Of a stretch of DNA of 51,016 nt, positions 1-14,294 are shown one piece after another. The translations under genes and the position numbers were made by a program. Source of the stretch: Acidimicrobiia bacterium (GTDB taxonomy: Bacteria; Actinomycetota; Acidimicrobiia; Acidimicrobiales; VFJN01); the NCBI GenBank assembly GCA_009694375.1, contig SHVB01000006.1, positions 1-51,016 on the forward strand, written 5' to 3'. Positions within the stretch are counted from its first letter, which is position 1. Each line of letters begins with the position of its first letter. The notes beneath the pieces were generated by a model. The model searched no databases and was not told the origin of the DNA. It was given only the letters and a program-made list of their open reading frames with translations.

Positions 1-1
1 G

Positions 2-148
2 GGTACGGAGATGTGCATGCCGGGTGATAACACGGTGATGCATGTGGAGTTGATTCATCCGATTGCGATGGACGAGGGCCTGCGGTTTGCTATCCGTGAG
101 GGTGGCCGTACCGTGGGCGCCGGTCGCGTCACCAAGATCATCAAGTAG
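2..148 (+). CDS. tuf: elongation factor Tu, C-terminal fragment (cut by window edge)
   Basis: The last 48 codons of EF-Tu, the GTPase that brings aminoacyl-tRNA to the ribosome. The reading frame begins at base 2 and ends at TAG 146-148. The visible residues are the end of beta-barrel domain 3: a PGDN turn, the HPIAMDEG segment, the [13 protein letters not shown] block and the terminal VTKIIK, all diagnostic of EF-Tu. The 5' part lies outside the window. Its position directly before rpsJ is the usual end of the str operon (rpsL-rpsG-fusA-tuf), so rpsJ is probably read from the same transcript. Confidence 0.97.
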
Positions 149-156
149 CCTTTCCA

Positions 157-172
157 GGCTCCGTCCGGAGCC
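157..172 (+). other. small hairpin between tuf and rpsJ
   Basis: A 6-bp GC-rich stem with a 4-base loop (arms 157-162 and 167-172) nine bases after the tuf stop. There is no T-run after it, so it is more likely a partial attenuator or mRNA-processing or stabilising element than a full terminator. Position and pairing are seen; role is inferred. Confidence 0.4.
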
Positions 173-200
173 GATCCTTGAAAAGTGAGCAGAGCAAGAC

Positions 201-521
<321 letters not shown>

Positions 522-539
522 GACCCCTTCAGAGTTCAG

Positions 540-566
540 AGAGGACCAGCCGGTGGCTGGTTCTCT
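540..566 (+). terminator. hairpin terminator after rpsJ
   Basis: Arms 540-551 and 555-566 form a 12-bp stem (one G-U pair) with a 3-base loop, 18 bases after the rpsJ stop. The 3' arm is T-rich near its end. This is the strongest hairpin in the rpsJ-capA gap and would end the tuf-rpsJ transcript, fitting a break in the S10 operon. Pairing is seen; termination is inferred. Confidence 0.6.
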
Positions 567-583
567 TCGCGCCCTCTGGCAGA

Positions 584-1747
584 ATGAGCGGAATGGGTTC
601 CCCTCGCCATCGAGCGTCTCCTGTTTCGGCTCGACGGCGCCGGATCACTCTGGGGCTGGTCGCCATGATCAGCGCGGCCGTCCTGGCGGTGAGCTACGGC
701 GCGAGTCGGCTGGACAGTGCGGATACCGCCACGCTCGGAACGGATTCCCCCAGTTCCCCTCCTTCCACCCCAGTTGCTGAGACCACTACCACCACGGAGC
801 CGCGGGGGGACCTCGGCAGTGGCGAGCCAGTCACGATCGCCTTCGCGGGCGATATCAACTTTGAGGGAACGAACCGCCTTCGCCTCGATAACGACCCCTC
901 CGGGGCCCTTGGTCCGTTTGCACCGGTCATCAGCGCCGCTGACCTCGCCATCGGGAACCTCGAAGCGGCGATTGCCGTCGGCGGTGCTCCGGCCCCCAAG
1001 CAGTTCACCTTTCAGGCACCCCCAATGGCGGTGGATGCGCTGCGCTCCGCCGGCTTCGATGTGGTGAGCATGGCCAACAACCACGGGGTGGACTACGGCC
1101 CCGATGGTCTGGCGGAATCGCTGGCGGTGGCGCGCGCCCAACGAGATCACTTCATGGTGGGGATCGGCGCCAACGAGGACGAGGCCTTCGCTCCCTTCAC
1201 CACCACGATCCGCGGCCAGCGCATTGCGGTCATTGGTGCCACCCAGGTAATGGGCGACAGCCTGATCGAGGCTTGGACCGCCACGGCAGACCATGCGGGT
1301 TTGGCGTCGGCCAAGCGCGTGGACCGCTTGGTGGCCGAGGTAGAGGCCGCCCGGGCCACTAACGACACGGTGATCGTCTTCCTCCACTGGGGGGTGGAGA
1401 AGGAGACATGTCCAAGTGGGGACCAACAGCGGTTGGCTCGTACTCTCGTCGATGCCGGAGCCGACCTGGTGGTGGGAGGTCATGCTCACCGCCTTCAGGG
1501 GGCCGGGCGCCTCGGGAATGCCGTGGTCAACTACGGCCTCGGTAACTTTTTCTTCAAGGAAAACAGTGCCGCCGGGGCGCAAACCGGCGTCTTTACCGTG
1601 ACGGCCACGGGTCGGCGCATCGATCGTTACCAGTGGACCCCCGGCCGTATCACCAACAGCGTTCCCTCGCCGCTGATGGGAGCCGAGGCGGAGCGCGCCC
1701 GGGCCGACTGGGAGGGCCTGCGGGGCTGCACGGGCCTGGCTCCCTAG
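584..1747 (+). CDS. CapA-family (PgsA-like) membrane-anchored metallophosphatase-fold protein
   Basis: A 387-residue member of the CapA/PGA_cap family, named after poly-gamma-glutamate capsule synthesis but widespread outside capsule loci. Residues 17-40 are a basic stretch then a hydrophobic segment, giving a signal anchor or signal peptide; 44-80 is a Ser/Thr/Pro-rich linker with a run of Thr. The domain follows: GDIN (89-92), GNLE (124-127), ANNH (164-167), HWG (268-270), GGHAH (298-302) and GLGNFF (318-323), i.e. the metal-ligand motifs of the calcineurin-like fold are all present. It is placed outside the membrane. No clear ribosome binding site precedes ATG 584; ATG 593 is an alternative. 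The gene lies between rpsJ and rplC, an unusual place; it may be read from its own promoter or by read-through past the hairpin at 540-566. The substrate is unknown. Confidence 0.9.
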   Translation: MSGMGSPRHRASPVSARRRRITLGLVAMISAAVLAVSYGASRLDSADTATLGTDSPSSPPSTPVAETTTTTEPRGDLGSGEPVTIAFAGDINFEGTNRLRLDNDPSGALGPFAPVISAADLAIGNLEAAIAVGGAPAPKQFTFQAPPMAVDALRSAGFDVVSMANNHGVDYGPDGLAESLAVARAQRDHFMVGIGANEDEAFAPFTTTIRGQRIAVIGATQVMGDSLIEAWTATADHAGLASAKRVDRLVAEVEAARATNDTVIVFLHWGVEKETCPSGDQQRLARTLVDAGADLVVGGHAHRLQGAGRLGNAVVNYGLGNFFFKENSAAGAQTGVFTVTATGRRIDRYQWTPGRITNSVPSPLMGAEAERARADWEGLRGCTGLAP

Positions 1748-1775
1748 CCCCTCGCCCGCCGCCGTGGCGGCCCCT

Positions 1776-1805
1776 TTGGACGGTGGAGCCCAGTACGGCT
1801 ATCTT
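1776..1805 (+). promoter_or_regulatory. predicted promoter for the rplC operon
   Basis: TTGGAC (1776-1781) and TATCTT (1800-1805) are spaced by 18 bases, a reasonable match to housekeeping sigma factor sites, in the 247-base gap between capA and rplC. Transcription would start near 1812, just before a chain of three hairpins. Prediction by eye only. Confidence 0.45.
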
Positions 1806-1820
1806 GTTACCTTCGTGCTA

Positions 1821-1966
1821 CCGGACCGGTTGGGTCCGGCGGCCGAAGATCGAAACCGATGTCCGGGCAGGCCCGAACCAACCTCGGGAACCGCACGGCA
1901 CAACCTAATCACGCTCCGCCGGGTCCCCCGTGCGGAGCGTTCGCGTGAACAGGGTTCGCTCTGTTC
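1821..1966 (+). promoter_or_regulatory. structured 5' leader of the rplC operon (three hairpins)
   Basis: Three stem-loops lie in order upstream of rplC: 1821-1839 (7 bp, 5-base loop), 1911-1940 (9 bp, 12-base loop) and 1947-1966 (6 bp, 8-base loop). The last ends 28 bases before the rplC start. A long structured leader after a promoter is what one expects of autogenous control by a ribosomal protein; the E. coli S10 leader is controlled by L4, encoded here as the second gene. No sequence identity to a known leader family was recognised. Confidence 0.45.
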
Positions 1967-1994
1967 CTCCGCAGATGAGAGAGACGTAGCCGTC

Positions 1995-2636
1995 ATGGCC
2001 ACCAAAGCAATCGTGGGTGAGAAAATAGGAATGACGCAGGTCTGGGACGACGAGAACCGCGTGGTGCCCGTTACCGTCCTTCGGGTCAAGCCGTGTCGTG
2101 TCGTGAAGGTCAAGACCGACGAGCGGGATGGTTACACCGCCCTCCAGGTCACCTTCGGCACGAAGAAGGCTTCCAAGATCACCAAGCCCAAGCTCGGGCA
2201 GTTTGAGAAGGCGGGCGTCGAACCCGGTCCGCGGCTCGTGGAACTGCGGCTTGACGACGTCTCAGAGTATTCGGTGGGCCAAGAACTGAAGGCCGACCTC
2301 CTCTCCAACGGCGACAAGGTTGATGTCACGGCCGTCAGCAAGGGCAAGGGCTTTGCCGGGGCGATGAAGCGCCACGGCTTCGGCGGCATGCCCGCCTCCC
2401 ACGGCACCCACCGCACGCACCGAGCCCCGGGCTCAGTGGGCGCTTGCGCTACGCCCTCGCGGGTATTCAAGGGCCAGCGGATGGCCGGTCGCATGGGTGG
2501 CGAGAAGGTCACCACCTTGAACCTCCTGGTGGTGACGGCCGATGCCGATCGCGACATCGTCCTCGTCCGCGGCTCGGTACCCGGGCCCAAGGGTGGGCTT
2601 GTGCTGATCCGTAACGCTGTGAAGGCGGATGTCTGA
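1995..2636 (+). CDS. rplC: 50S ribosomal protein L3
   Basis: L3 is an early-assembly 50S protein whose long loop reaches the peptidyl transferase centre. The start is placed at ATG 1995 because the product then begins MATKAIVGEKIGMTQVW, the family's N-terminus; an in-frame extension back to 1764 has no similarity and would cover the leader. The 213-residue length is normal. The conserved loop with GFGGMPASHGTHRTHRAPGS is present, followed by the GRMGGEKVTTLNL block. It is the first gene of the operon as organised here; its stop overlaps the proposed rplD start. Confidence 0.97.
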   Translation: MATKAIVGEKIGMTQVWDDENRVVPVTVLRVKPCRVVKVKTDERDGYTALQVTFGTKKASKITKPKLGQFEKAGVEPGPRLVELRLDDVSEYSVGQELKADLLSNGDKVDVTAVSKGKGFAGAMKRHGFGGMPASHGTHRTHRAPGSVGACATPSRVFKGQRMAGRMGGEKVTTLNLLVVTADADRDIVLVRGSVPGPKGGLVLIRNAVKADV

Positions 2637-3285
2637 GATGCCCACGTTGGAGAAGAAGGACGCCGCCGGGAAAGCCGCCGGGTCGGTGGAACTCGATGAG
2701 GCCATGTTCGGGATTGAGCCGAACCTCCCGGTTCTGCACCAGGTGGTGACGGCACAATTGGCCGCCAAACGCTCGGGTTCGCAGTCCACCAAGACCCGCG
2801 CCGAAGTGCGCGGTGGCGGAGCGAAGCCGTGGAATCAGAAGGGCACCGGCCGGGCCCGGGCCGGGTCGAGTCGTTCCCCCATCTGGACTGGCGGTGGCGT
2901 GATTCACGCCCCCAAGCCTCGGAGTTACGCCCAGCGCACCCCCAAGAAGATGATTCGTCTGGCCCTGAAGTCCGCCCTTTCCGACCGTGCCGCTTCGGAG
3001 CGGATTCTGGTACTCGATTGGGGCATCGATGCTCCGAGCACCAAGAGCGCCATGGCTGCCTTGGCGGCCAATGGCGTGGATGGTCGGGTGCTGGTGGTGC
3101 TCCGCCCCGAGGACCAGGCCATCTGGAAGAGCCTCCGCAACCTGGACAACATCCACGTGTGCGGCATTGGCGAGTTGAACGCCTACGACATCCTTGTGTC
3201 GGACTGGCTGGTCTTCACCCCCGACACGCTGCCGGTCGATCGCCCCGTTACCCGGGGCCACCACGCCGCTGAGGAGGCCTCGTGA
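2629..3285 (+). CDS. rplD: 50S ribosomal protein L4
   Basis: L4 binds 23S rRNA domain I, lines the exit tunnel, and in gamma-proteobacteria also represses its own operon. The 218-residue product contains the tunnel-loop sequence [15 protein letters not shown] followed by [13 protein letters not shown], and a C-terminal globular domain. ATG 2629 overlaps the rplC stop by 8 bases; ATG 2638, two bases beyond that stop, is an alternative three codons in. Either way translation is probably coupled to rplC. Confidence 0.97.
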
Positions 3286-3575
3286 TCAAGGACCCCCGCG
3301 ACATCATCCTCGCTCCCATTGTGAGCGAGAAGTCCTTCGCCCTCTCCGAGGGCGGGGCCTATACCTTCAAGGTGCACCCCAGCGCTTCTAAGCCCGAGAT
3401 ACACGACGCCGTCGAGGCGATCTTTGGGGTGAAGGTCCTGAAGGTGAACACCCTCAACCGGAAGGGCAAGCGGAAGCGCAACCGCAAGACCTCCGGGTTT
3501 GGCAGCCGACCCGACACCAAGCGAGCGATCGTGACCCTCATCGAGGGTCAGACGATCGACCTCTTCCAGGGATAG
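3282..3575 (+). CDS. rplW: 50S ribosomal protein L23
   Basis: L23 lies at the tunnel exit and is the docking site for trigger factor and SRP. It starts at GTG 3282 in a GTGA overlap with the rplD stop. The 97-residue protein shows the family pattern: [15 protein letters not shown] at the start, [14 protein letters not shown], and the [12 protein letters not shown] segment. Normal length, no oddities. Confidence 0.97.
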
Positions 3576-3582
3576 AGCAGAC

Positions 3583-4419
3583 ATGGCCCTTCGCAAACGC
3601 AAGCCCACCAGCCCCGGTCGTCGATTCCAGACGGTCTCCGACTTCGCCGAGCTCACCAAGACGACGCCCGAGAAGTCACTGCTGGCGCCCAAGCACAACA
3701 CTGGTGGCCGCAACAACTACGGCCGCAAAACGGCCCGTCACAAAGGTGGCGGCCACAAGCAGCGCTACCGCATGATCGACTTCAAGCGCACCAAGGACGG
3801 CGTGCCGGCCAAGGTGGCTGCGGTGGAGTACGACCCCAACCGCAACTGTCGCATACTGCTCCTCCATTACCTCGATGGTGAGAAGCGTTACATCCTCGCC
3901 CCGAAAGACGTAGGCGTGGGCGCCATGCTGCAGTCGGGCCAGGGTTCGGAGATCCGTCCGGGCAACGCCCTTCCGCTGCGCTACATCCCCGTGGGCACCA
4001 CCGTGCACGCCATTGAGTTGTACCCCGGCGGTGGCGCCAAGATGGGTCGTTCCGCCGGCACGGCCGTGCAGTTGGTGGCCAAGGAAGGCGACTACGCCAC
4101 GCTGCGTCTGCCCAGCACCGAGATGCGCCGGGTTCCGATCAACTGCCGGGCGACCGTTGGTGAAGTTGGCAACTCCGAAGCCGAACTCATCAAGATCGGC
4201 AAGGCAGGCCGCAACCGCTGGAAGGGCGTCAAACCCCAAACCCGCGGTGTGGCGATGAACCCCGTCGACCACCCCCTCGGTGGCGGCGAGGGCAAAACCT
4301 CCGGTGGTCGGCACCCAGTGTCGCCATGGGGCAAGCCCGAAGGCCGCACCCGAGACAAGACCAAGCCGTCCCAAAAACTCATCGTCCGCCGGCGCCGTAC
4401 GCGCGGCAGTCGGAGGTAG
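3583..4419 (+). CDS. rplB: 50S ribosomal protein L2
   Basis: L2 is needed for subunit association and peptidyl transfer. The 278-residue protein has the N-terminal [10 protein letters not shown] block, the SH3-like and OB domains, and the C-terminal region [16 protein letters not shown] then [10 protein letters not shown]. The His after the conserved Asp (residue 230, equivalent to E. coli His229) is kept, but the second His of the usual DHPHGGG is Leu (residue 232, codon CTC). It lies 7 bases after rplW with an AG-rich ribosome binding site. Confidence 0.97.
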
Positions 4420-4425
4420 GAACCC

Positions 4426-4710
4426 ATGCCCCGCAGCCTCAAAAAGGGTCCCTTCGTGGACGATCATCTTCTCAAGAAGGTGGACGTCCTCAACGAGAAG
4501 GGCGAAAAAAAGGTCATCAAGACTTGGAGCCGTCGCTCGACCATCATCCCGGAGATGGTTGGTCACACCATTGCCGTTCACGATGGTCGTAAGCATGTCC
4601 CGGTGTATGTCACCGAGGCCATGGTTGGGCACAAACTCGGCGAATTCTCCCCCACGCGAACCTTCAGGTTCCACGCGGGTATGGAGAAGCAGGCTCGAGG
4701 GCGGCGATAG
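4426..4710 (+). CDS. rpsS: 30S ribosomal protein S19
   Basis: S19 sits in the 30S head, contacting S13 and the A-site region. The 94-residue product begins [18 protein letters not shown] and contains [23 protein letters not shown] split over the middle and the [12 protein letters not shown] block, all strongly conserved. It starts six bases after rplB and ends two bases before rplV, so it is an internal gene of the operon. Confidence 0.97.
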
Positions 4711-4712
4711 CA

Positions 4713-5411
4713 ATGGCCTTCGGAACCAAGACCAACGAACGTCCCGGTACCCGTGCCGAGGTGAAGTACCTTCGAGTTTCCGCCTACAAGGCACGCGAGG
4801 TCCTCGACCTCATCCGGAACCTGCACGTCGACGATGCCGACGGGGTGCTCGAGTTCACCGATCGGGCAGTGGCGGGCGAGATTCGCAAGGTCCTGGCGGC
4901 GGCCGTGGCCAACGCGGAGCACAACGACTCGATGGACCCCAATGAACTGTGCGTATCGGCTTGTTTCGCCGATGAGGGCCCCACCCTCAAGCGGTGGCGT
5001 CCCCGGGCCCGTGGCCGAGCGACCCGCATCCGCAAGCGCACCTGCCACATCACCGTGATCGTCAGCCGCATGGACCCCAAGAAATTGGCTCAACGCCAGG
5101 CTCGTACCACCGCGGCGGTGGGTCGGGGGGGTGTCCGGCGCGATGCGGCGGAGGCCCGGCGGGCCCGCGTGGCCAAGAGCCAGGCGGCTCGGGCGGCGCG
5201 TCAGCCCGACCACGACCACGATGCCGACGAGGTGAGCACCGACGAGGTGAGCACCGACGAGGTGAGCACCGACGAGGTGATTGAGGCGGAAGCCCCGGCG
5301 GAGACGGTGGTCACCGATGCACCCGAGGACAACCTCGAGGCGGGCGAACCCCCCCTCGAGGTACCCACCGATGAGTCCGAGGCATCAGCCTCGGATGAGG
5401 AGAAGAGCTGA
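4713..5411 (+). CDS. rplV: 50S ribosomal protein L22 with long acidic C-terminal extension
   Basis: L22 lines the polypeptide exit tunnel. Residues 1 to about 120 are the normal protein ([19 protein letters not shown] near the start, then the [22 protein letters not shown] hairpin region, here written across residues 94-115). The usual L22 is about 110-120 residues; this one is 232. Residues about 121-165 are very basic and Arg/Ala-rich, and about 166-232 very acidic, with three and a half copies of a five-residue DEVST repeat encoded by a 15-base tandem repeat. The tail probably lies outside the ribosome surface; its role is unknown. The stop overlaps the rpsC start by one base. Confidence 0.96.
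5226..5280 (+). repeat. 15-bp tandem repeat inside rplV
   Basis: Three perfect copies of GACGAGGTGAGCACC (5226-5240, 5241-5255, 5256-5270) and a 10-base partial copy (5271-5280). The unit is a multiple of three, so changes in copy number keep the frame and only lengthen or shorten the acidic tail of L22. Confidence 0.95.
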
Positions 5412-6316
5412 TGGGTCAGAAGGTCAACCCCTACGGCTTCCGCCTCGGTGTTACCACCGAGTGGAAGTCCCGTTGGTTCGCCGACCGCAAGGAGTACGGC
5501 GCCTTCATTATCGAGGACTGGAAAATCCGTGACTTCATCATGGTTCAGCTTCCCCATGCCGCCATCTCGCGGGTGGAGATCGAGCGCACCCGGGACAAGC
5601 TTCGGGTAGATGTGCACACCGCCCGACCTGGCATTGTGATCGGCCGACGCGGTGCCGAGGCTGATCGCATGCGGGCAGGGCTCACCGTCATTACTGGCAA
5701 CAACAAGGTGCAGCTCAACATCCAAGAGATCAAACAACCCGAGCTGGATGCCGCCCTTATTGCCCAGGGCGTCGCCGATCAACTCGCTGGCCGCGTGGCC
5801 TTCCGTCGAGCCATGAAGCGTGCCGTCCAGAATGCGCAGAAGGCCGGTGCCCTTGGTATCCGGGTTCAGTGCTCGGGCCGCCTCGGCGGGTCGGAGATGT
5901 CTCGCACCGAGTGGTACCGCGAGGGCCGGGTACCGCTGCATACGCTCCGGGCCGACATCGACTACGGCTTCCGTGAAGCCCGCACCCCCGTTGGGCGGAT
6001 CGGCGTAAAGGTGTGGCTCTACAAGGGCGACATTCTTCCGTACAAATCTTCCAACGACGATAAGATCAACCGTGAGGCCGCTATGGCCGTGGGTGAGACC
6101 TCCGGCGCTGCCGGTGCTCCCCGCCGAGTGGTGTCGAGTTCCGCGGCTTCTCGTCGGCCCGTGACCGCCGATGGCGACTTGGCGGCCGAAGCTGAACCCC
6201 TGGTCAAGGAGGCTGATCCCGAGTTGGAGCGCCTTTTGGCCGAGGAAGAGGAGATCGAGCGCCTTACCGTTGAGCACCACGAGACGCCCAAGTTCCACCC
6301 GGGAGATGCCGACTGA
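5411..6316 (+). CDS. rpsC: 30S ribosomal protein S3 with acidic tail
   Basis: S3 forms part of the mRNA entry helicase of the 30S subunit. The 301-residue protein begins [14 protein letters not shown], has the KH domain with [12 protein letters not shown] near residue 75, and the C-terminal domain [15 protein letters not shown]...[13 protein letters not shown]. The core ends near residue 215; residues 216-301 are a low-complexity Ala/Ser then Glu-rich tail. It begins in the rplV stop (one-base overlap) and its own stop overlaps rplP. Confidence 0.97.
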
Positions 6317-6732
6317 TGTTGATGCCTAAGAAGGTCAAACACCGCAAGCAGCATCGTGGGCGCATGCGCGGTCAGAGCAAGGGTGGTAGCGAGGTCACCT
6401 TCGGCGACTACGGCATCCAGGCCCTAGAGCCGGGGTGGATCACCGCCCGTCAGATCGAAGCGGCTCGTATCGCCATGACCCGTAAGACCCGCCGGGGTGG
6501 CAAGGTCTGGATCACCGTCTTCCCGGACAAACCCGTCACCGAAAAGCCCGCCGAGACTCGGATGGGATCGGGCAAGGGCAACCCGGAACGTTGGGTCGCC
6601 GTGGTGAAGCCGGGCCGCATCCTCTTCGAACTTTCCTATCCCGATCCGGTCTTGGCCCGCGAAGCTATCGAGCGCGCCATTCAGAAGCTGCCAATCAAGG
6701 CCCGCTTCGTCGCTCGTGAGGAGGCCCTCTAA
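6316..6732 (+). CDS. rplP: 50S ribosomal protein L16
   Basis: L16 organises the A-site tRNA binding region of the 50S subunit. The 138-residue product starts [15 protein letters not shown], matching the family's MLxPxxVKxRKxH opening, so ATG 6316 is preferred over ATG 6322. The [22 protein letters not shown] block (around residues 78-99) is typical. One-base overlaps at both ends (rpsC stop, rpmC start) show tight coupling. Confidence 0.97.
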
Positions 6733-6962
6733 TGGCCAAGGACATTGTCTACCGGGAGCTCGACGATGCCGCGCTGCTGCGGGAACTGGCCGAGACCAAG
6801 GACGCCTTGTTCAAGAAGCGTTTCGAGAACGCCACCGGCCAACTCGACAACGTGAGCGTCCTGAAGAAGCTTCGCAAGGACATCGCACGATTCAACACCG
6901 AGCTTCGGTCCCGCGAGATTGAGGCGGCCGAAGCGCTTGAGAACCAGAGGGAGAACGCCTGA
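6732..6962 (+). CDS. rpmC: 50S ribosomal protein L29
   Basis: L29 is a small helical-hairpin protein near the tunnel exit beside L23. The 76-residue sequence has the two-helix pattern: an N-terminal [23 protein letters not shown] helix and a second helix with [21 protein letters not shown]. Single-base overlaps with rplP and rpsQ at the two ends. Confidence 0.95.
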
Positions 6963-7234
6963 TGGCCGACGAGACCACTACTCGGCCCAACGCCCGCAAG
7001 TTGCGCGAGGGAGTTGTTACTTCCGCCGGCATGGACAAGACCGCCGTCGTTACGGTAACTACCCGCAAGCCGCACCCGCTCTACAACAAGACCATGGTGC
7101 GCACCAAGAAGCTCTACGTGCACGATGAGACCAACGACGCCAAGCTGGGCGACAAAGTTCGGGTCCAAGAGACCCGGCCCCTGTCCAAGCTGAAGCGCTG
7201 GCGGCTTGTGGAAGTGCTGGAGCGAGCACGATGA
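6962..7234 (+). CDS. rpsQ: 30S ribosomal protein S17
   Basis: S17 is a primary 16S rRNA binding protein with an OB fold. The 90-residue product carries the diagnostic blocks [38 protein letters not shown] and [17 protein letters not shown]. It is the last gene of the S10 group; a 64-base gap follows before rplN, the largest gap inside this run, with a GGAG ribosome binding site near its end. Confidence 0.97.
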
Positions 7235-7298
7235 GAGAGAGACGCGACGCGCCATTCATGCTCCCTGACTTTGGCGTGAAGTTTGATCGGAGTTACGC

Positions 7299-7667
7299 AT
7301 GATTCAACAGGAGAGCCGTCTTCGGGTGGCGGATAACAGCGGGGCCAAGGAGGTCCTGTGCATCCGTGTGCTCGGTGGAACGAAACGGCGCTACGCCAGC
7401 ATCGGTGACGTGTTCGTCGCCACCGTCAAGGACGCTATCCCCGGCGCAGCGGTCAAGAAGGGCGAGGTCGTCAAGTGCGTCGTCGTGCGGGTGAAGAAGG
7501 AGAAGCGCCGTCCCGACGGTAGCTACATCCGCTTCGACGAGAACGCCGCCGTGCTCATCAACGACCAGATGAACCCTCGGGGCACCCGAATCTTCGGCCC
7601 GGTGGGCCGAGAGTTGCGGGACAAGAAGTTCATGAAAATCGTGTCCCTGGCTCCGGAGGTGCTGTAA
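7299..7667 (+). CDS. rplN: 50S ribosomal protein L14
   Basis: L14 lies at the subunit interface and is the docking site of RsfS. The 122-residue sequence starts [18 protein letters not shown], includes the [23 protein letters not shown] block and ends [13 protein letters not shown], all family-typical. It opens the spc-type gene group; a GGAG motif lies about 8 bases before the ATG. The 64 bases upstream could hold an internal promoter but I see no convincing one. Confidence 0.97.
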
Positions 7668-7669
7668 CC

Positions 7670-7990
7670 ATGGCCGGCCTCAAGATCAAAAAGGGCGACA
7701 AGGTGCAGGTGCTGACCGGCAAGGATCGTGGCGAAACCGGCCAGGTCGCGCGGGTGTTCCCCTCCGCGGGGAAGATCATCGTCGACGGCGTCAATGTGGC
7801 CAAGAAGCACCAAAAGGCCACCAAGGCCACGATGCAGGGCGGCATCATCGACAAGGACATGCCCTTGCCCATCGCCAACGTGGCGCTGGTGTGCCCGGCG
7901 TGCGGCCAGCCCACTCGGGTGGGTTACCGGCACGACCCCGACGGCACCAAGGTACGCATGTGCAAGAAGTGTGGAAAGGACATCGAGTGA
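7670..7990 (+). CDS. rplX: 50S ribosomal protein L24, zinc-ribbon form
   Basis: L24 initiates 50S assembly. The 106-residue protein has the N-terminal KOW motif ([21 protein letters not shown]) and the [15 protein letters not shown] segment. The C-terminal half has a CPAC / CKKC pair (Cys 75, 78, 98, 101), consistent with a metal-binding ribbon; many bacterial L24 proteins lack these cysteines. The stop overlaps the GTG start of rplE. Confidence 0.96.
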
Positions 7991-8565
7991 CCACCGCCAC
8001 CGCTACCAACCCGGTACCGCGGCTCAAGACCAGGTATGAGACCGAAATCCGTGATGCCCTCAAGGAGCAACTCGGGTTCGGAAACATCATGCAGGTTCCC
8101 CGCCTCGAAAAGATCGTGATCAACATGGGCGTCGGCGCCGCTGTTGGGCAGCCTTCACTGCTCGAGGGAGCCGTGAAGGACCTCACCCGGATCTCTGGTC
8201 AGAAGCCGATCATCACCCGGGCCCGTAAGTCCATCGCCAACTTCAAACTCCGTGAGGAGAACCCCATCGGCACGAAGGTCACCCTGCGGGGTGCGCGCAT
8301 GTGGGAGTTCCTCGACCGGCTCATCAGCCTCGCCATCCCGCGGGTCCGTGACTTCCGGGGGCTCAACCCCCGTTCGTTCGACGGCCACGGCAACTACACG
8401 TTCGGTGTGAGCGACCAGCTGATTTTCCCGGAGGTCGACTACGACTCGATCGATGCCCCGCGAGGCATGGACATCACCATCGTGACGACCGCCAAGACCA
8501 ACGCCGAAGGCAAGGCCCTCCTCGACGCCTTTGGCTTCCCGTTCAAGCGCGAGGGACAGGAATAA
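7987..8565 (+). CDS. rplE: 50S ribosomal protein L5
   Basis: L5 binds 5S rRNA and contacts P-site tRNA. GTG 7987, in a GTGA overlap with the rplX stop, is chosen because the sequence from there (192 residues) has a short linker and then [18 protein letters not shown]; an open frame running back to 7891 has no L5 similarity. Conserved blocks: [34 protein letters not shown] and the [20 protein letters not shown] stretch near residues 118-137. Confidence 0.96.
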
Positions 8566-8750
8566 TGGCCAAGAAAGCACTGATCGAAAAACAACAGCGG
8601 ACCCCGAAGTTCAAGGTTCGTGCCTACACCCGCTGTAAGCGCTGTGGGCGTCCGCATTCCGTCTACCGCAAGTTCGGCCTGTGCCGGATCTGTTTGCGGG
8701 AGATGGTCCACGCCGGGGAAATCCCCGGTGTGACGAAGGCCAGTTGGTGA
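8565..8750 (+). CDS. rpsN: 30S ribosomal protein S14, zinc-binding type (S14Z)
   Basis: S14 lies in the 30S head and is needed late in assembly. The 61-residue length and the two CxxC pairs (Cys 24, 27, 40, 43) mark the short zinc-binding form rather than the 100-residue zinc-free form that some actinobacteria also carry. It begins in the last base of the rplE stop. Confidence 0.97.
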
Positions 8751-8763
8751 GGGGAGTCGACCA

Positions 8764-9168
8764 ATGACCATGACCGACCCGATCTCCGACATGCTCACTC
8801 GCATTCGCAACGCCAACGTTGCGATGCACGACGACGTGCGCATGCCCAGTTCCAAGGTGAAAGAGGCCCTCGCCACCATCCTCCACAAGGAGGGCTACAT
8901 CGATGGCTTTGATGTGGCCGACAACACCGAACGCCCTGGACGCGTGCTGTCCATCAAGATGAAGTACTCGCCCGAGCGAGCCCGTGTGATCTCCGGCCTG
9001 CGCCGGGTGTCCAAGCCGGGCCTGCGTGTCTACAGTCAGTCCACCAAGGTCCCCCGGGTCCTCGGTGGTCTCGGGGTGGCCGTCCTCTCAACCAGCCAGG
9101 GGCTCATGACCGACCGCGAAGCGCGCAAGCGCAACGTGGGCGGCGAGATCCTCTGCTTCGTGTGGTGA
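8764..9168 (+). CDS. rpsH: 30S ribosomal protein S8
   Basis: S8 is a primary 16S rRNA binder, and in E. coli the repressor of the spc operon. The 134-residue product begins [18 protein letters not shown] and has the C-terminal block [26 protein letters not shown], split here by normal family residues. A GGGGAG ribosome binding site is 8-12 bases upstream. ATG 8770 is a possible alternative start. Confidence 0.97.
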
Positions 9169-9174
9169 CCTGAC

Positions 9175-9714
9175 ATGAGCCGAATCGGAAAATCCCCCAT
9201 CCCGGTCCCCCGCGGCGTCGATGTGACCATCGCCGGGAGCCATGTCACCGTGAAGGGTCCCAAGGGCACTCTGGAGCGCGTGCTGCCGGGCGCTATCACC
9301 GTGCGTCAGGATGGCGATGAGTTGCTGGTGGAACGTCCCGACGATGAGCGCGAGAACCGGGCCATGCATGGCCTGGTTCGCTCGCTGGTGAACAACATGG
9401 TCGTGGGTGTGAACGAGGAGTTCGTGAAGGAGCTGGAGATCATCGGCGTGGGTTACCGCGCCGCCGCTCAGGGCACCAGCAAGCTTGATCTGGCTCTCGG
9501 GTTCAGTCACCCGGTGTCGGTTGACGCTCCCGCTGGCATCACCTTCGAGACCCCCACCCCGAACCGCATCATCGTGAAGGGTATCGACAAGGAAATCGTC
9601 GGCCAAGTGGCCGCCAACATCCGCAAGATCCGTAAACCCGAGCCTTACAAGGGCAAGGGCGTCCGGTACCTTGGCGAATTCGTCGCCAAGAAGGCCGGAA
9701 AGACGGGTAAGTAA
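9175..9714 (+). CDS. rplF: 50S ribosomal protein L6
   Basis: L6 sits near the factor-binding site and sarcin-ricin loop. The 179-residue protein starts MSRIGKSPIPVPRGVDV and carries the repeated alpha/beta domains typical of L6, with GVGYRAAAQG in the second domain and the C-terminal signature KIRKPEPYKGKGVRYLGE. Six bases separate it from rpsH. Confidence 0.97.
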   Translation: MSRIGKSPIPVPRGVDVTIAGSHVTVKGPKGTLERVLPGAITVRQDGDELLVERPDDERENRAMHGLVRSLVNNMVVGVNEEFVKELEIIGVGYRAAAQGTSKLDLALGFSHPVSVDAPAGITFETPTPNRIIVKGIDKEIVGQVAANIRKIRKPEPYKGKGVRYLGEFVAKKAGKTGK

Positions 9715-9723
9715 GGACACCTT

Positions 9724-10089
9724 ATGACCGTGACCGCACAGCACAAGCGAGAAGCCCGCATCCGTCGCCACCGTCGCGTGCGCAAAAAGGTGGAAGGTTC
9801 GGCCGAGCGCCCGCGCCTGGCTGTCTTCCGCTCGAACAAGCACATCTCCGCTCAGGTGATCGACGACCGCTCCGGTTGCACGATCGCATCGGCGTCCACC
9901 CAAGAGACCGACCTGCGAGAGGGTGGAACCAGCAACAAGGGTGCTGCCATCAAGGTTGGTCAGCTCGTCGCCGAGCGGGCTAAGGCCGCTGGCGTCACCA
10001 AGGTCGTCTTCGATCGAGGCGGCAACCTCTACCACGGTCGGGTGGCGGCAGTCGCTGACGCCGCCCGTGACGCTGGACTGGAGCTCTAG
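9724..10089 (+). CDS. rplR: 50S ribosomal protein L18
   Basis: L18 carries 5S rRNA into the 50S subunit. The 121-residue product has the basic N-terminus [19 protein letters not shown], then [20 protein letters not shown], and ends with the family block [24 protein letters not shown]. rpsE starts directly after its stop codon. Confidence 0.97.
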
Positions 10090-10713
10090 ATGGCTAACGG
10101 ATCAGGTCCCCCCCGCCGAGAGCGCGAGAAAGCAGAGCGCGAGAACCCTCGGCAGTCCACCGACACCACCCTGCGTGAGTCGCGCGTGATCAACATCAAC
10201 CGCGTGTCCAAGGTCGTGAAGGGCGGTCGGCGCTTCAGCTTCACCGCTCTCGTGGTGATCGGTGATGGTCATGGGCGCGTCGGCTTGGGTTATGGCAAGG
10301 CGAAAGAGGTGCCCCTGGCGATTCAGAAGGGCACCGAAGAAGCTCGCAGGAATCTCTTCCAGGTGCCGCTGGCGGGCACGACGGTGACGCATACGATCGT
10401 GGGCCGCATGGGAGCAGGCCGAGTGTTGTTGAAGCCGGCGGCTCCCGGTACCGGTGTGATCGCCGGTGGGGCTGCCCGCGCCATCCTCGAAGAGGCGGGC
10501 GTGCGCGACGTGCTGTGCAAGTCCCTCGGTTCCTCCAACCACATCAACGTGGCCCGCGCCACCATCAACGGTCTCAAGTCGCTTAAGCGGCCTGATGAGA
10601 TTGCTCGTCTCCGTGGTCTCGATCCTGAGGACTTTGTGCCCAAGGGAATGCTCGCCGCCTATAACCTGAGCGAGCGCGGTCCGCAGGCCTCCGTGCCCGA
10701 AGAGGTTGCGTGA
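10090..10713 (+). CDS. rpsE: 30S ribosomal protein S5
   Basis: S5 takes part in decoding accuracy and the mRNA entry channel. The 207-residue protein has an N-terminal charged extension of about 30 residues, then the S5 signature [21 protein letters not shown], the GMGYGKA-like [17 protein letters not shown], and the C-terminal domain with [19 protein letters not shown]. It abuts rplR with no gap and overlaps rpmD by one base. Confidence 0.97.
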
Positions 10714-10910
10714 TGACTGAAGCAGGCACGATCACCGTCACCCAGATCCGTAGCGCCATCGGAACCAAGCCCAAGCAGCGGGGAACGCTACGGGCGCTTG
10801 GTCTCGGTCGCATCGGCAAGTCGAACACCCTTCCTGATCGCCCCGAGATTCGTGGGATGGTGGCCCGAGTGCCCCACCTCGTCTCGGTTGAGGAGCAGAC
10901 CAACTCATGA
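10713..10910 (+). CDS. rpmD: 50S ribosomal protein L30
   Basis: A 65-residue L30 with the usual TITVTQIRSAIGTKPKQRGTL opening (written across residues 6-26) and the LGLGRIGKSNTLPDRPEIRGM block. ATG 10713 overlaps the rpsE stop by one base; GTG 10710 immediately before is an alternative. The 3' end overlaps rplO by four bases. Confidence 0.95.
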   Translation: MTEAGTITVTQIRSAIGTKPKQRGTLRALGLGRIGKSNTLPDRPEIRGMVARVPHLVSVEEQTNS

Positions 10911-11401
10911 CCATCAAGATCCATGACCTCCAGCCCCCCAAGGGCTCAAACCGTGGCAAGAAGCGCGTCGGTCGGGGTATCGCCGGCAAGGGCGGTAAAA
11001 CCGCTGGCCGAGGCACCAAGGGCCAAAAGGCACGCGGCAGCGTCCCGGCCCGGTTCGAGGGCGGCCAGATGCCCCTCAACATCCGAATCCCCAAGCTCAA
11101 GGGCTTCAACAACCCGTTCCGGGTTGAGTATCAGGGCATCAATCTCGACTCCATCGAGGAAAGCGGCATGGACGAGATCAGTCCTGCCGCCCTCCAAGCC
11201 AAGGGTCTGGCGCACAAGGGTGCCCTCATCAAGGTCCTGGGCCGGGGTGACCTCACGCGTAAGGTCACCGTGAAGGCCCATGCCTTCTCAAAGTCTGCCG
11301 AGGCAGCCATCGCGGCGGCGGGCGGTACGGTGGAGATCCTGCCCAAGCCGTGGGGCGATCGTCGTCCTCCGGTGCAAGGAAACCAGTTCGCTAACCGCTA
11401 G
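10907..11401 (+). CDS. rplO: 50S ribosomal protein L15
   Basis: L15 is a late-assembly 50S protein with a long, basic, Gly-rich N-terminal arm. The 164-residue product starts with IHDLQPPKGSNRGKKRVGRG and GKGGKTAGRGTKGQKARG, then RFEGGQMPLNIRIPKLKGF, and ends in the domain containing VTVKAHAFSKSAEAAIAAAGG. It starts in an ATGA overlap with rpmD and precedes secY as in most bacteria. Confidence 0.97.
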   Translation: MTIKIHDLQPPKGSNRGKKRVGRGIAGKGGKTAGRGTKGQKARGSVPARFEGGQMPLNIRIPKLKGFNNPFRVEYQGINLDSIEESGMDEISPAALQAKGLAHKGALIKVLGRGDLTRKVTVKAHAFSKSAEAAIAAAGGTVEILPKPWGDRRPPVQGNQFANR

Positions 11402-11416
11402 TCCTATCGATCCAAT

Positions 11417-11433
11417 CGCTGCCGCTGGCAGCG
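11417..11433 (+). other. hairpin between rplO and secY
   Basis: A 7-bp stem with a 3-base loop (arms 11417-11423 and 11427-11433) in the 55-base gap. It is followed by an AGGAG ribosome binding site for secY, not by a T-run. It may adjust expression between ribosomal genes and secY; role inferred. Confidence 0.35.
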
Positions 11434-11456
11434 CCCGCTGATCAGGAGCCCAGTCC

Positions 11457-12773
11457 GTGCTGTCCAGCGTTCGTAACGTGTTCAGAATCCCTGACCTCCG
11501 GGGAAAGATTCTCTTCACGCTGCTGATGATCGCGCTCTACCGCATCGGTGCCTACATTCCCGCGCCGGGTATCGATCTCGATGCGGTGGCCGAACTCAAG
11601 CGACAAGCCGACCAAGGCGCTGGCGTGTTGGGCTTCCTGCAGCTGTTCTCGGGGGGCGCCCTCACCCAGTTTGCCATCTTTGCGTTGGGGATCATGCCCT
11701 ACATCACCGCCTCGATCATCATGCAAGTCCTCACGGTGGTGATCCCGAAGCTGGAGGAATGGCAGCAGATGGGGGCCGTGGGGCAGCGCAAGATTACCCA
11801 GTGGACCCGCTACTTCGCCGTGTCTATCGCCTTGTTGCAATCCACCGGCTTGGCCTTCCTCTTCCACAATGGAGGTGGCGGTTTGCTCGGCGGCGGCAAC
11901 AGCCTCGGGATCGACGTCCTCCCCAACTTCACTCCGTTCCGGGTGATCCTGGTGGTGTTCACCCTCACGGCGGGCACGGCCCTGCTGATGTGGTTGTCCG
12001 AACTCATCAGCCAGCGCGGCATTGGTAACGGCATGTCGTTGATGATCTTCGCCTCGGTGGTGAGTATCTTCCCGGCTGCGGGTGCCCAACTGAATGCGGA
12101 GAAGGGTTCCGCGCTCCTGATCTTCCTGCTGCTGCTCGCCGTGGTCCTGCTGGTGGCCATCGTGTTTGTCGAACAAGGTCAGCGCCGCATCCCCGTGCAG
12201 TTCGCCAAGCGGGTGGTGGGTCGTCGGATGTATGGGGGCCAGAGCACTTACATCCCCCTCAAGGTGAACCAATCAGGCGTGATCCCGATCATTTTCGCCA
12301 GTTCGGTCCTCTACCTCCCGATTCTGTTCACCAACGTTTTGCCAGCCGAGGGTTACGGAAGGTCGATCCAGGGCTGGGTGAACGACCACCTGGTCCAACC
12401 CGACTCGATCGTGTACGTCCTTGTGTACGGCCTGCTCATCATCGGCTTTGCCTACTTCTACACCGCCATTGCCTTCGATCCTGCGCAGCAGGCCGAGAAC
12501 ATCCGAAAGCAGGGTGGGTTTATCCCCGGTATTCGCCCCGGGCCCCAGACCGAGCGCTACCTTGCCAAGATCTTGTCTCGGATCACTCTGCCCGGTGCGT
12601 TGTTCATCGCTTTCATCGCGCTCCTGCCCTCGATTCTGCTGGCTACCGCTGACGTAGAGAACTTCCCCTTCGCCGGCACCTCGCTGCTCATCGCAGTGGG
12701 CGTGGCCCTCGAGACGATGAAGCAGATTGACAGCCAGTTGATGATGCGCAACTACGAGGGCTTCTTGAAGTGA
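11457..12773 (+). CDS. secY: protein translocase subunit SecY
   Basis: SecY forms the membrane channel of the general secretion pathway with SecE and SecG. The 438-residue protein begins at GTG 11457 behind an AGGAG motif. It shows about ten hydrophobic segments, the first near residues 18-37, a GGALTQFAIFALGIMPYI block in TM2, and the cytoplasmic loop with PGIRPGPQTERYL near residue 357 that contacts SecA and the ribosome. The C-terminus ends MMRNYEGFLK, typical of SecY. Position after rplO and before adk is classical. Confidence 0.97.
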   Translation: MLSSVRNVFRIPDLRGKILFTLLMIALYRIGAYIPAPGIDLDAVAELKRQADQGAGVLGFLQLFSGGALTQFAIFALGIMPYITASIIMQVLTVVIPKLEEWQQMGAVGQRKITQWTRYFAVSIALLQSTGLAFLFHNGGGGLLGGGNSLGIDVLPNFTPFRVILVVFTLTAGTALLMWLSELISQRGIGNGMSLMIFASVVSIFPAAGAQLNAEKGSALLIFLLLLAVVLLVAIVFVEQGQRRIPVQFAKRVVGRRMYGGQSTYIPLKVNQSGVIPIIFASSVLYLPILFTNVLPAEGYGRSIQGWVNDHLVQPDSIVYVLVYGLLIIGFAYFYTAIAFDPAQQAENIRKQGGFIPGIRPGPQTERYLAKILSRITLPGALFIAFIALLPSILLATADVENFPFAGTSLLIAVGVALETMKQIDSQLMMRNYEGFLK

Positions 12774-12792
12774 TGGCGGCTGGGGTCCTGGC

Positions 12793-13452
12793 GTGATCCC
12801 CGGCGCTCGTCTGGTCCTGCTGGGTCGGCAGGGTGCGGGCAAGGGAACCCAATGTGTGCGCCTCTCGCACCATTACGTGATCCCTCACATCTCCACGGGT
12901 GACATGCTCCGCTCGGCGGTCCGTGAGGGCACCGAGTTCGGCCTCCAGGCCAAAGCGGTGATGGACCGTGGCGAACTCGTGTCGGACGGGGTCATCGGGG
13001 GAGTGGTGGCCGAGCGGCTAGCCGCCGACGACACCCGAGAGCGCGGCTACATTCTCGACGGTTTCCCGCGCACCGTGGGCCAGGCGGAAAGGCTGAGCGA
13101 GATCACGGTGGGGGCGGCGTTGGACCTAGTGATCGACCTTGTCGTGCCCACCCAGGTGGTGTTGGAGCGATTGGCTGGCCGGCGCGTATGCGTGGATTGC
13201 GCCACGAACTTCTCGGTGGACTCCCCGCCGCGTTATGGCTGGGTGTGCGACAACTGTGGCGGTGAGGTGGTGCAGCGGGCCGACGACACCTCCGCCGCCA
13301 TCCAGATTCGCCTCGATCTCTACGAGCGCGAAACGGCACCGCTGATCGCCTGGTATCTCGAACGCGAGCTTCTCACCGCCGTGGATGGTCTCGGCACCGC
13401 CGCCGAGGTCACCGCCCGCCTGGTCGCCGCCGTGGACGCCCGCCGCTCCTAA
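12793..13452 (+). CDS. adk: adenylate kinase, zinc-type LID
   Basis: Interconverts ATP, AMP and ADP in the cytosol. The 219-residue product starts at GTG 12793. The P-loop GRQGAGKGTQ is at residues 11-20, the NMP-binding ISTGDMLR at 33-40, DGFPRT at 89-94. The LID region carries CVDC and CDNC (Cys 133, 136, 152, 155), i.e. the zinc-stabilised long form. The secY-adk-map order is widespread in Gram-positives. Confidence 0.96.
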   Translation: MIPGARLVLLGRQGAGKGTQCVRLSHHYVIPHISTGDMLRSAVREGTEFGLQAKAVMDRGELVSDGVIGGVVAERLAADDTRERGYILDGFPRTVGQAERLSEITVGAALDLVIDLVVPTQVVLERLAGRRVCVDCATNFSVDSPPRYGWVCDNCGGEVVQRADDTSAAIQIRLDLYERETAPLIAWYLERELLTAVDGLGTAAEVTARLVAAVDARRS

Positions 13453-13547
13453 CCCCCCCATTGGCGGCGGCGGTGAGCCTGATCCCGGCGATGGGCGAAA
13501 CGGGTCGCATTGAGGTCTGGAGCCAGGGTGGGTTCTAGCCTGGGGGG

Positions 13548-14294
13548 GTGCGTCGATCGAGTGAGGATCTGGGAAAGATGCGTAAGGCGGGACGGGTCGT
13601 GGCTGAGATGCATGCAGCGATCCGTGCCGCCATTCGCCCGGGGGTAACCACGGCCGCTCTGGATCGCATCGGGCGCGACGTCATCGAGCGTCGCGGCGCG
13701 CAGTCCAACTTCCTGGGCTATGGGTACCCACCGTTCCCCGGGGTGATCTGTGCATCACCCAACGACGTGATTGTGCATGGAGTACCAGGGCCCTATTGCC
13801 TCGCGGAGGGCGACATCATCTCCATCGACTGCGGGGCGATCATCGAGGGGTGGCATGGTGATGCCGCCTTCACCGTGGGCGTGGGCCGGATCCACCCCGA
13901 AGCGGAACGGCTGATCGCGGTGACCGAGGCGTCGCTGGCGGCGGGGATCCGGGCGATGGTTCCCGGCGGTCGACTGTCTGATATCGGCTCGGCGGTGCAG
14001 GGCGTGGTCGAGGCGGCTGGATTCTCGGTGGTGCGCGATTACACCGGCCACGGGATCGGGACTGCCATGCACGAGGCGCCCGATGTCCCTAACTGGGGAC
14101 GACCAGGCAAGGGTCGACGATTGGGGTCCGGCCAGACCTATGCGGTGGAGCCGATGGTCTGCGCGGGCGGCCCCGAGGCCAAGGTCTTGGAGGACCAGTG
14201 GACCGTGGCCACCCTCGATGGGCGCCTCGCCGCCCACACGGAGCACACCATTGCCATCACCGACCACGGCCCGGAGATCCTCACCCTGCCCTGA
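13548..14294 (+). CDS. map: methionine aminopeptidase, type I
   Basis: Removes the N-terminal Met from new proteins. The 248-residue product starts at GTG 13548. All five metal ligands of the pita-bread fold are present: Asp94, Asp105, His168, Glu201 and Glu232, with motifs SIDCGAIIEGWHGDAAFTV, GHGIGTAMHEAP, and AVEPMV. It lacks the N-terminal SH3-binding extension of type Ic enzymes. A 95-base gap separates it from adk; the G-run just before the GTG may serve as ribosome binding site. Confidence 0.96.
   Translation: MRRSSEDLGKMRKAGRVVAEMHAAIRAAIRPGVTTAALDRIGRDVIERRGAQSNFLGYGYPPFPGVICASPNDVIVHGVPGPYCLAEGDIISIDCGAIIEGWHGDAAFTVGVGRIHPEAERLIAVTEASLAAGIRAMVPGGRLSDIGSAVQGVVEAAGFSVVRDYTGHGIGTAMHEAPDVPNWGRPGKGRRLGSGQTYAVEPMVCAGGPEAKVLEDQWTVATLDGRLAAHTEHTIAITDHGPEILTLP

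Follow-up and report, generated by a model that had tools for sequence, protein, structure and literature searches.

The window analysed here, a 51,016-nt stretch of DNA from an Acidimicrobiia bacterium, is contig SHVB01000006.1 (C6) from its first base, in a 96%-complete genome of 2.58 Mb and 36 contigs. It carries rpsJ (uS10; 201–521, TIGR01049, E 2.9e-44), a capA-like gene (584–1747) and rplC (uL3; 1995–2636, TIGR03625, E 9.2e-86) on a common strand (+) and in that order. Comparison with relatives makes it probable that the rpsJ/rplC junction is an operon boundary in this order (Acidimicrobiales) and in part of its class, with rpsJ as the final ribosomal gene of a tuf-rpsJ unit and rplC, the first gene of the downstream S10 unit, equipped with a promoter and a leader RNA of its own. 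A sequence-only reading of the window had offered a re-wired operon as one reason why an insertion between two such closely linked genes was tolerated, and this is the option favoured by the promoter-like site, by the leader conserved across the order and part of the class, and by the unrelated cargo found in the same interval elsewhere.

The leader RNA and promoter-like site before rplC

Sixty relatives, including the source genome, were searched, giving an rplC match in 57 and an rpsJ match in 55, and 55 of the 57 rplC loci were read; left out of the counts are G006, G016 and G020 (no rplC match), and G013 and G023 (rplC matched without rpsJ, loci not fetched). An alignable element of ~100 nt lies upstream of rplC in 48 of the 55 genomes read (alignment A2). 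Its core in the window, defined by alignment, fold and covariation, spans 1853–1953 (+) and scores 92.8 bits with R1, a model built from the aligned leaders. The element consists, in order, of AAYCGACGTC, a variable hairpin bounded by GCC and GGGAACC, GGCACAACCGA, GCTCCGC...GCGGAGC, and TTCGCGTGA. Alignment A2 omits seven genomes: R1 matches G015 and G038, which brings the leader to 50 of the 55, it matches G031 weakly (E 1e-4) and G037 only at E 0.17, and it has no match in G044, G053 and G056.

The consensus fold comprises three helices on the + strand, P1 (1861–1868/1893–1899), P2 (1872–1874/1886–1888) and P3 (1913–1919/1932–1938). Double changes occur in 10 of the 17 leader pairs, and P1 is changed on both sides in six of its seven. 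Overall, 96.6% of leader cells are paired, compared with 83.0% in shuffles and at most 44.7% in slid controls, and double-change cells number 107 against 26.5 ± 4.9 in shuffles, none of 500 shuffles reaching the observed 107. The covariation test was repeated on 15 matches outside the training set (alignment A3), two of them on the opposite strand.

R1 was applied to 246 phylum genomes and 119 class genomes, and gave a single match in the source genome, at the rplC leader. The phylum sample yielded 20 matched genomes, of which 16 belong to the order, two to other orders of the class, and two are weak matches elsewhere that do not lie near rplC; all 18 strong matches, 14 of them from genomes outside the training alignment, stand directly upstream of rplC. 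In the class sample 55 genomes matched, 28 from the order and 27 from other orders, with two further order members giving no match. Twenty of the 27 other-order matches were fetched, and 19 sit 9–120 nt before rplC, the exception being a weak match in G352 (E 4.5e-5); altogether, 33 of the 34 matches examined outside the training set are directly before rplC. A gap of more than 900 bp separates rpsJ from rplC in seven of the 17 fetched other-order loci that also hold rpsJ, while class members G103 and G115 have neither a gap nor a leader match. The leader and the rpsJ–rplC gap go together, G044 excepted.

A promoter-like site for rplC, TTGGAC-N18-TATCTT (1776–1805, +), is retained at the same position by each of the four genus members although the spacer differs between them, with a poorer −10 element in G003. 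Across the wider set, a promoter-like pair of the TTG(G/A) type precedes 19 of 48 leaders, against 0.6 ± 0.8 in shuffles. Of the new promoter and leader that had been proposed after capA, the leader is borne out by the conserved, covarying RNA, and the kept site is a putative promoter; together they matter more for the junction than the hairpin in front of capA.

The leader appears to be new, in that no description of it could be found and Rfam 15 has no family matching positions 1–14,000 of the window (E up to 1) or any of six leader loci (E up to 0.5). A full-text search, judged by title and the start of the abstract, turned up neither an rplC leader nor a separated rpsJ-rplC pair described for this group; most subscription journals lie outside the reach of that search, so a description may exist. 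The closest known system is the E. coli S10 operon, which uL4 controls through a leader that, according to the sections available of PMC10931766, precedes rpsJ and is not widely conserved even in gammaproteobacteria. That leader is a long structured 5′ leader heading an S10-type operon with rplC and rplD, as the element described here would be; in the relatives aligned, however, the latter lies between rpsJ and rplC, is found in part of the Actinomycetota, and has another architecture, and its binding by uL4 is a prediction. It also resembles the leader candidates of Eckert and Weinberg 2020 (PMC7247131), covarying RNAs found steadily upstream of ribosomal protein (r-protein) genes, with a ligand deduced from position. 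The passage of Table 1 available from that paper gives rplC just for an archaeal L4 leader and holds no bacterial rplC leader, and the word stem Acidimicrob does not occur in the paper.

The rpsJ–rplC interval across relatives

The two genes share a contig in 46 relatives, and the interval between them is 0.6–7.9 kb in 19 of these, 163–486 bp in 25, and 47 and 67 bp in G053 and G056. Outside the class, the median gap in the phylum sample is 22 bp and only two of 79 genomes exceed 600 bp (G135 and G145); the excess of long intervals in the order gives a Fisher p of 4e-8 (6e-7 with the genus counted once), values that are uncorrected for kinship and use a threshold set post hoc. One of the two outside genomes has 7.8 kb between rpsJ and rplC (G135:C11:8129-16838), possibly an independent split. 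In G009, G021, G032 and G040 the two genes are on different contigs, each at least several kb inside, and the leader precedes rplC even there, with rpsJ far off. Linkage of tuf to rpsJ is kept, with a median gap of 17 bp in 49 relatives.

Most long intervals in the order hold genes unrelated to capA, and the inserts occur on either strand. Pfam families identified in the interval of one relative or another include a pentapeptide protein; an aminotransferase with an AMP-dependent ligase and a HAD hydrolase; a DNA ligase with a TrkA-type channel; a catalase with LigB and an NHL protein; an MpaB-type oxygenase with an ABC transporter and a PDZ protease; an acyl-CoA dehydrogenase with a LigD primase and a DAO oxidoreductase; a carboxylesterase; and a 5′-nucleotidase with an M6 peptidase. 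AI-2E family transporters lie on the opposite strand in L066 (G057), L074 (G039) and L081 (G018), which represent three genera of three different families; these may derive from one old event, the alternative being repeated insertion. The inserts of G005 and G025 match no Pfam family, and that of G035 gives a sub-cut-off match only. The interval therefore looks like a permissive site and not a functional partnership. In G058 (L069, 1302–1988) the insert is a ferritin-like protein; bacterioferritin genes lie between str and S10 in Gammaproteobacteria, as reported in the part of PMC8046335 consulted, and the resemblance is possibly a coincidence.

The sequence-only reading had suggested dating the insertion by comparing this interval across related genomes, and had named an old lineage layout with no link to expression as a finding that would refute it. 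This applies by half: the split between rpsJ and rplC is an old trait of the lineage, whereas capA is not old and, among the relatives read, is confined at this place to one genus. In Gammaproteobacteria and Bacilli the str/S10 boundary lies upstream of rpsJ. Genes have been described as invading the str–S10 inter-operon gap in these two groups, after which the operons separate (PMC8046335, in the excerpts available), and both stages are seen here, with at least 1 kb in 18 of 46 intervals and the genes on separate contigs in four genomes; the difference is that the probable boundary here lies between rpsJ and rplC, and is marked by a leader RNA.

The capA-like gene and its surroundings

The presence of a CapA-family gene of 387 codons between rpsJ and rplC, as originally proposed, is confirmed by the profile matches to all three genes. 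The PGA_cap match (PF09587, E 2.8e-63) spans profile positions 1–254 of 255 and scores 214 bits against a cut-off of 27; a second possible start lies at 593–596. Membrane anchoring of the product is likewise supported, hydropathy giving a single N-terminal membrane segment at residues about 21–39. The product is probably an enzyme anchored in the membrane and belonging to the CapA/MslH metallophosphatase-like family: chains of the type of MslH, a solved relative and lasso-peptide epimerase (8gq9), match at E 6e-10, and the GD, NNH, HWG and GGHxH residues are invariant in 11 capA relatives. Its score with the MslH model is far below the cut-off, at 56 against 700 bits. It also differs from poly-gamma-glutamate capsule synthase, as a CapC-type partner (PF14102) was not found in the 96%-complete source genome by a search whose control was positive in B. 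subtilis. A second PGA_cap gene of that genome lies on C1 and shares 34% identity with capA.

Intact copies of capA occupy the same site in G003 and G001, and are 95% and 86% identical to the window gene; the nearest named records, CAMDIH010000058.1 and VFJN01000181.1, show the same two identities. In a further genus member, G002, just the last ~100 codons are left, followed by an opposite-strand PNPOx-family gene. By tblastn, capA is absent from the fetched rpsJ/rplC loci of other relatives, including G004 and G005 of the same family, and only two of 30 named loci holding a capA relative also contain rpsJ or rplC, both from this genus. Since the gene is intact in genus members, decayed in G002 and not found in the loci of other relatives, it appears to have entered the site in or before the genus ancestor, with one later loss, and it constitutes genus-specific cargo. 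Among genus members its dN/dS of 0.17–0.28 indicates purifying selection, and hence a working gene.

In the window rpsJ and capA are 62 nt apart, in G001 15 nt, and the short spacing in the latter makes it likely that capA is transcribed by read-through from tuf-rpsJ. The hairpin previously taken as terminator-like does exist between the two genes (539–567, +, 13 bp), and is present in two of the three genomes with intact capA; its terminator character is doubtful, as it has no T tract, is not reported by the terminator scan, is only a little more stable than shuffles (z −1.9), and is absent from G001. A role as an essential terminator was accordingly rejected on its absence from G001, as was a dispersed repeat, the hairpin having a single copy in the genome even with up to three mismatches.

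Upstream, the 3′ end of tuf (EF-Tu; 1–148, +) is truncated by the contig start. Assemblies break inside tuf at or near one place in three genus members (window position 1; L004 position 1; L005 position 1), as a duplication of tuf in these genomes would lead one to expect. Downstream, an rplV-like frame (4713–5411, 232 aa) has an acidic tail at 5200–5411 with a repeated STDEV unit.

A probable operon boundary behind rpsJ and its alternatives

These observations can be accommodated by a scheme in which rpsJ would close the tuf-rpsJ transcription unit, and the rest of the S10 operon would start at rplC from its own predicted promoter, behind the ~100-nt structured leader. The leader is most likely an r-protein leader, for which we infer uL4 as the preferred ligand, followed by uL3; it would then act autogenously, surplus uL4 (or uL3) binding it and lowering expression of rplC-rplD and the following genes. 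With the operon head placed behind rpsJ, the space between would have become an inter-operon gap. With the S10 genes transcribed independently of rpsJ, the stretch from rpsJ to the rplC promoter would be nearly free space, filled by unrelated genes in many genera, and insertion would sometimes have continued until the two operons parted. The capA gene of the window would be one such insert, already present in the genus ancestor.

Several points weigh against this scheme. G053 and G056, both order members, have no leader (and gaps of 47–67 bp, as above), and G044 has a gap of 384 bp yet no leader match. The promoter-like pattern was picked after the sequences had been read, and a general promoter scan does not report the window site at 1776–1805. 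P3 is nearly invariant and contributes little covariation. A comparison with 23S rRNA found no convincing shared motif that would make the leader an rRNA look-alike, the best R1 score in the 23S locus being a weak 6.2 bits (E 0.66). Leader and ATG are separated by anything between about 9 and more than 120 nt, so that no single translational block is evident.

The last two points also lend some weight to a rival in which the structured RNA serves a different purpose, for instance mRNA processing or stability, antitermination, or provision of a site for a different regulator. As the ligand is inferred, this rival is a serious candidate, although a considerably less likely one, given that nearly all genomes have one leader site, directly before rplC, which is the usual place of an r-protein leader (PMC7247131, as far as the text was available). 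That the element instead encodes a conserved leader peptide is very improbable: in the window a frame beginning with the ATG at 1859 stays open across most of the leader, but no reading frame is stop-free in all 48 leaders, lengths are distributed evenly over the three classes modulo 3 (17, 16 and 15 of 48), and the covariation is of the base-pair type, and the peptide was rejected on these grounds.

The other alternatives concern capA rather than the leader. The sequence-only reading had also raised the option of a deliberate coupling between an envelope protein and ribosome production, in which capA was recruited on purpose and is co-transcribed with tuf-rpsJ so that the envelope enzyme scales with ribosome output. 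Its position on the same strand, the 15-nt spacing from the rpsJ stop in G001 and the purifying selection on it are all compatible with this. However, capA occurs at the junction in only one genus among the relatives read and is mostly deleted in G002, its codon usage (0.555) is below that of all 15 ribosomal genes (0.59–0.74) and below the mean of the 27 other window genes (0.62), and the inserts of other genera are unrelated and stand on either strand; deliberate recruitment is thus improbable, and the proposal is not upheld. A misassembly placing capA between rpsJ and rplC would be suggested by the start of the contig inside tuf, 200 bp before rpsJ, but is hardly credible, because the same junctions are present in two other genus assemblies, with a remnant in a third; this excludes the join within 522–1994 that had been named as a possible flaw.

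Taken a step further, the boundary behind rpsJ would mean that an undescribed r-protein leader, restricted to a portion of a single actinobacterial class, gave rplC transcriptional self-sufficiency and shifted the str/S10 boundary inward by one gene. Production of uS10 would then go with EF-Tu, and uL3, uL4 and the rest would come under their own feedback, with a junction that ranks among the most conserved in bacteria turned into a recurrent insertion site; the balance of evidence tips somewhat towards this fuller account. It would offer a testable reason for the repeated breakage of a near-universal gene pair in one lineage, namely the position of the operon's regulatory head behind rpsJ. 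The leader is also a candidate RNA for control by a large-subunit protein, in bacteria whose control of the S10 genes appears undescribed in the literature searched, and the finding advises caution in inferring function for genes that happen to lie inside the rpsJ–rplC junction.
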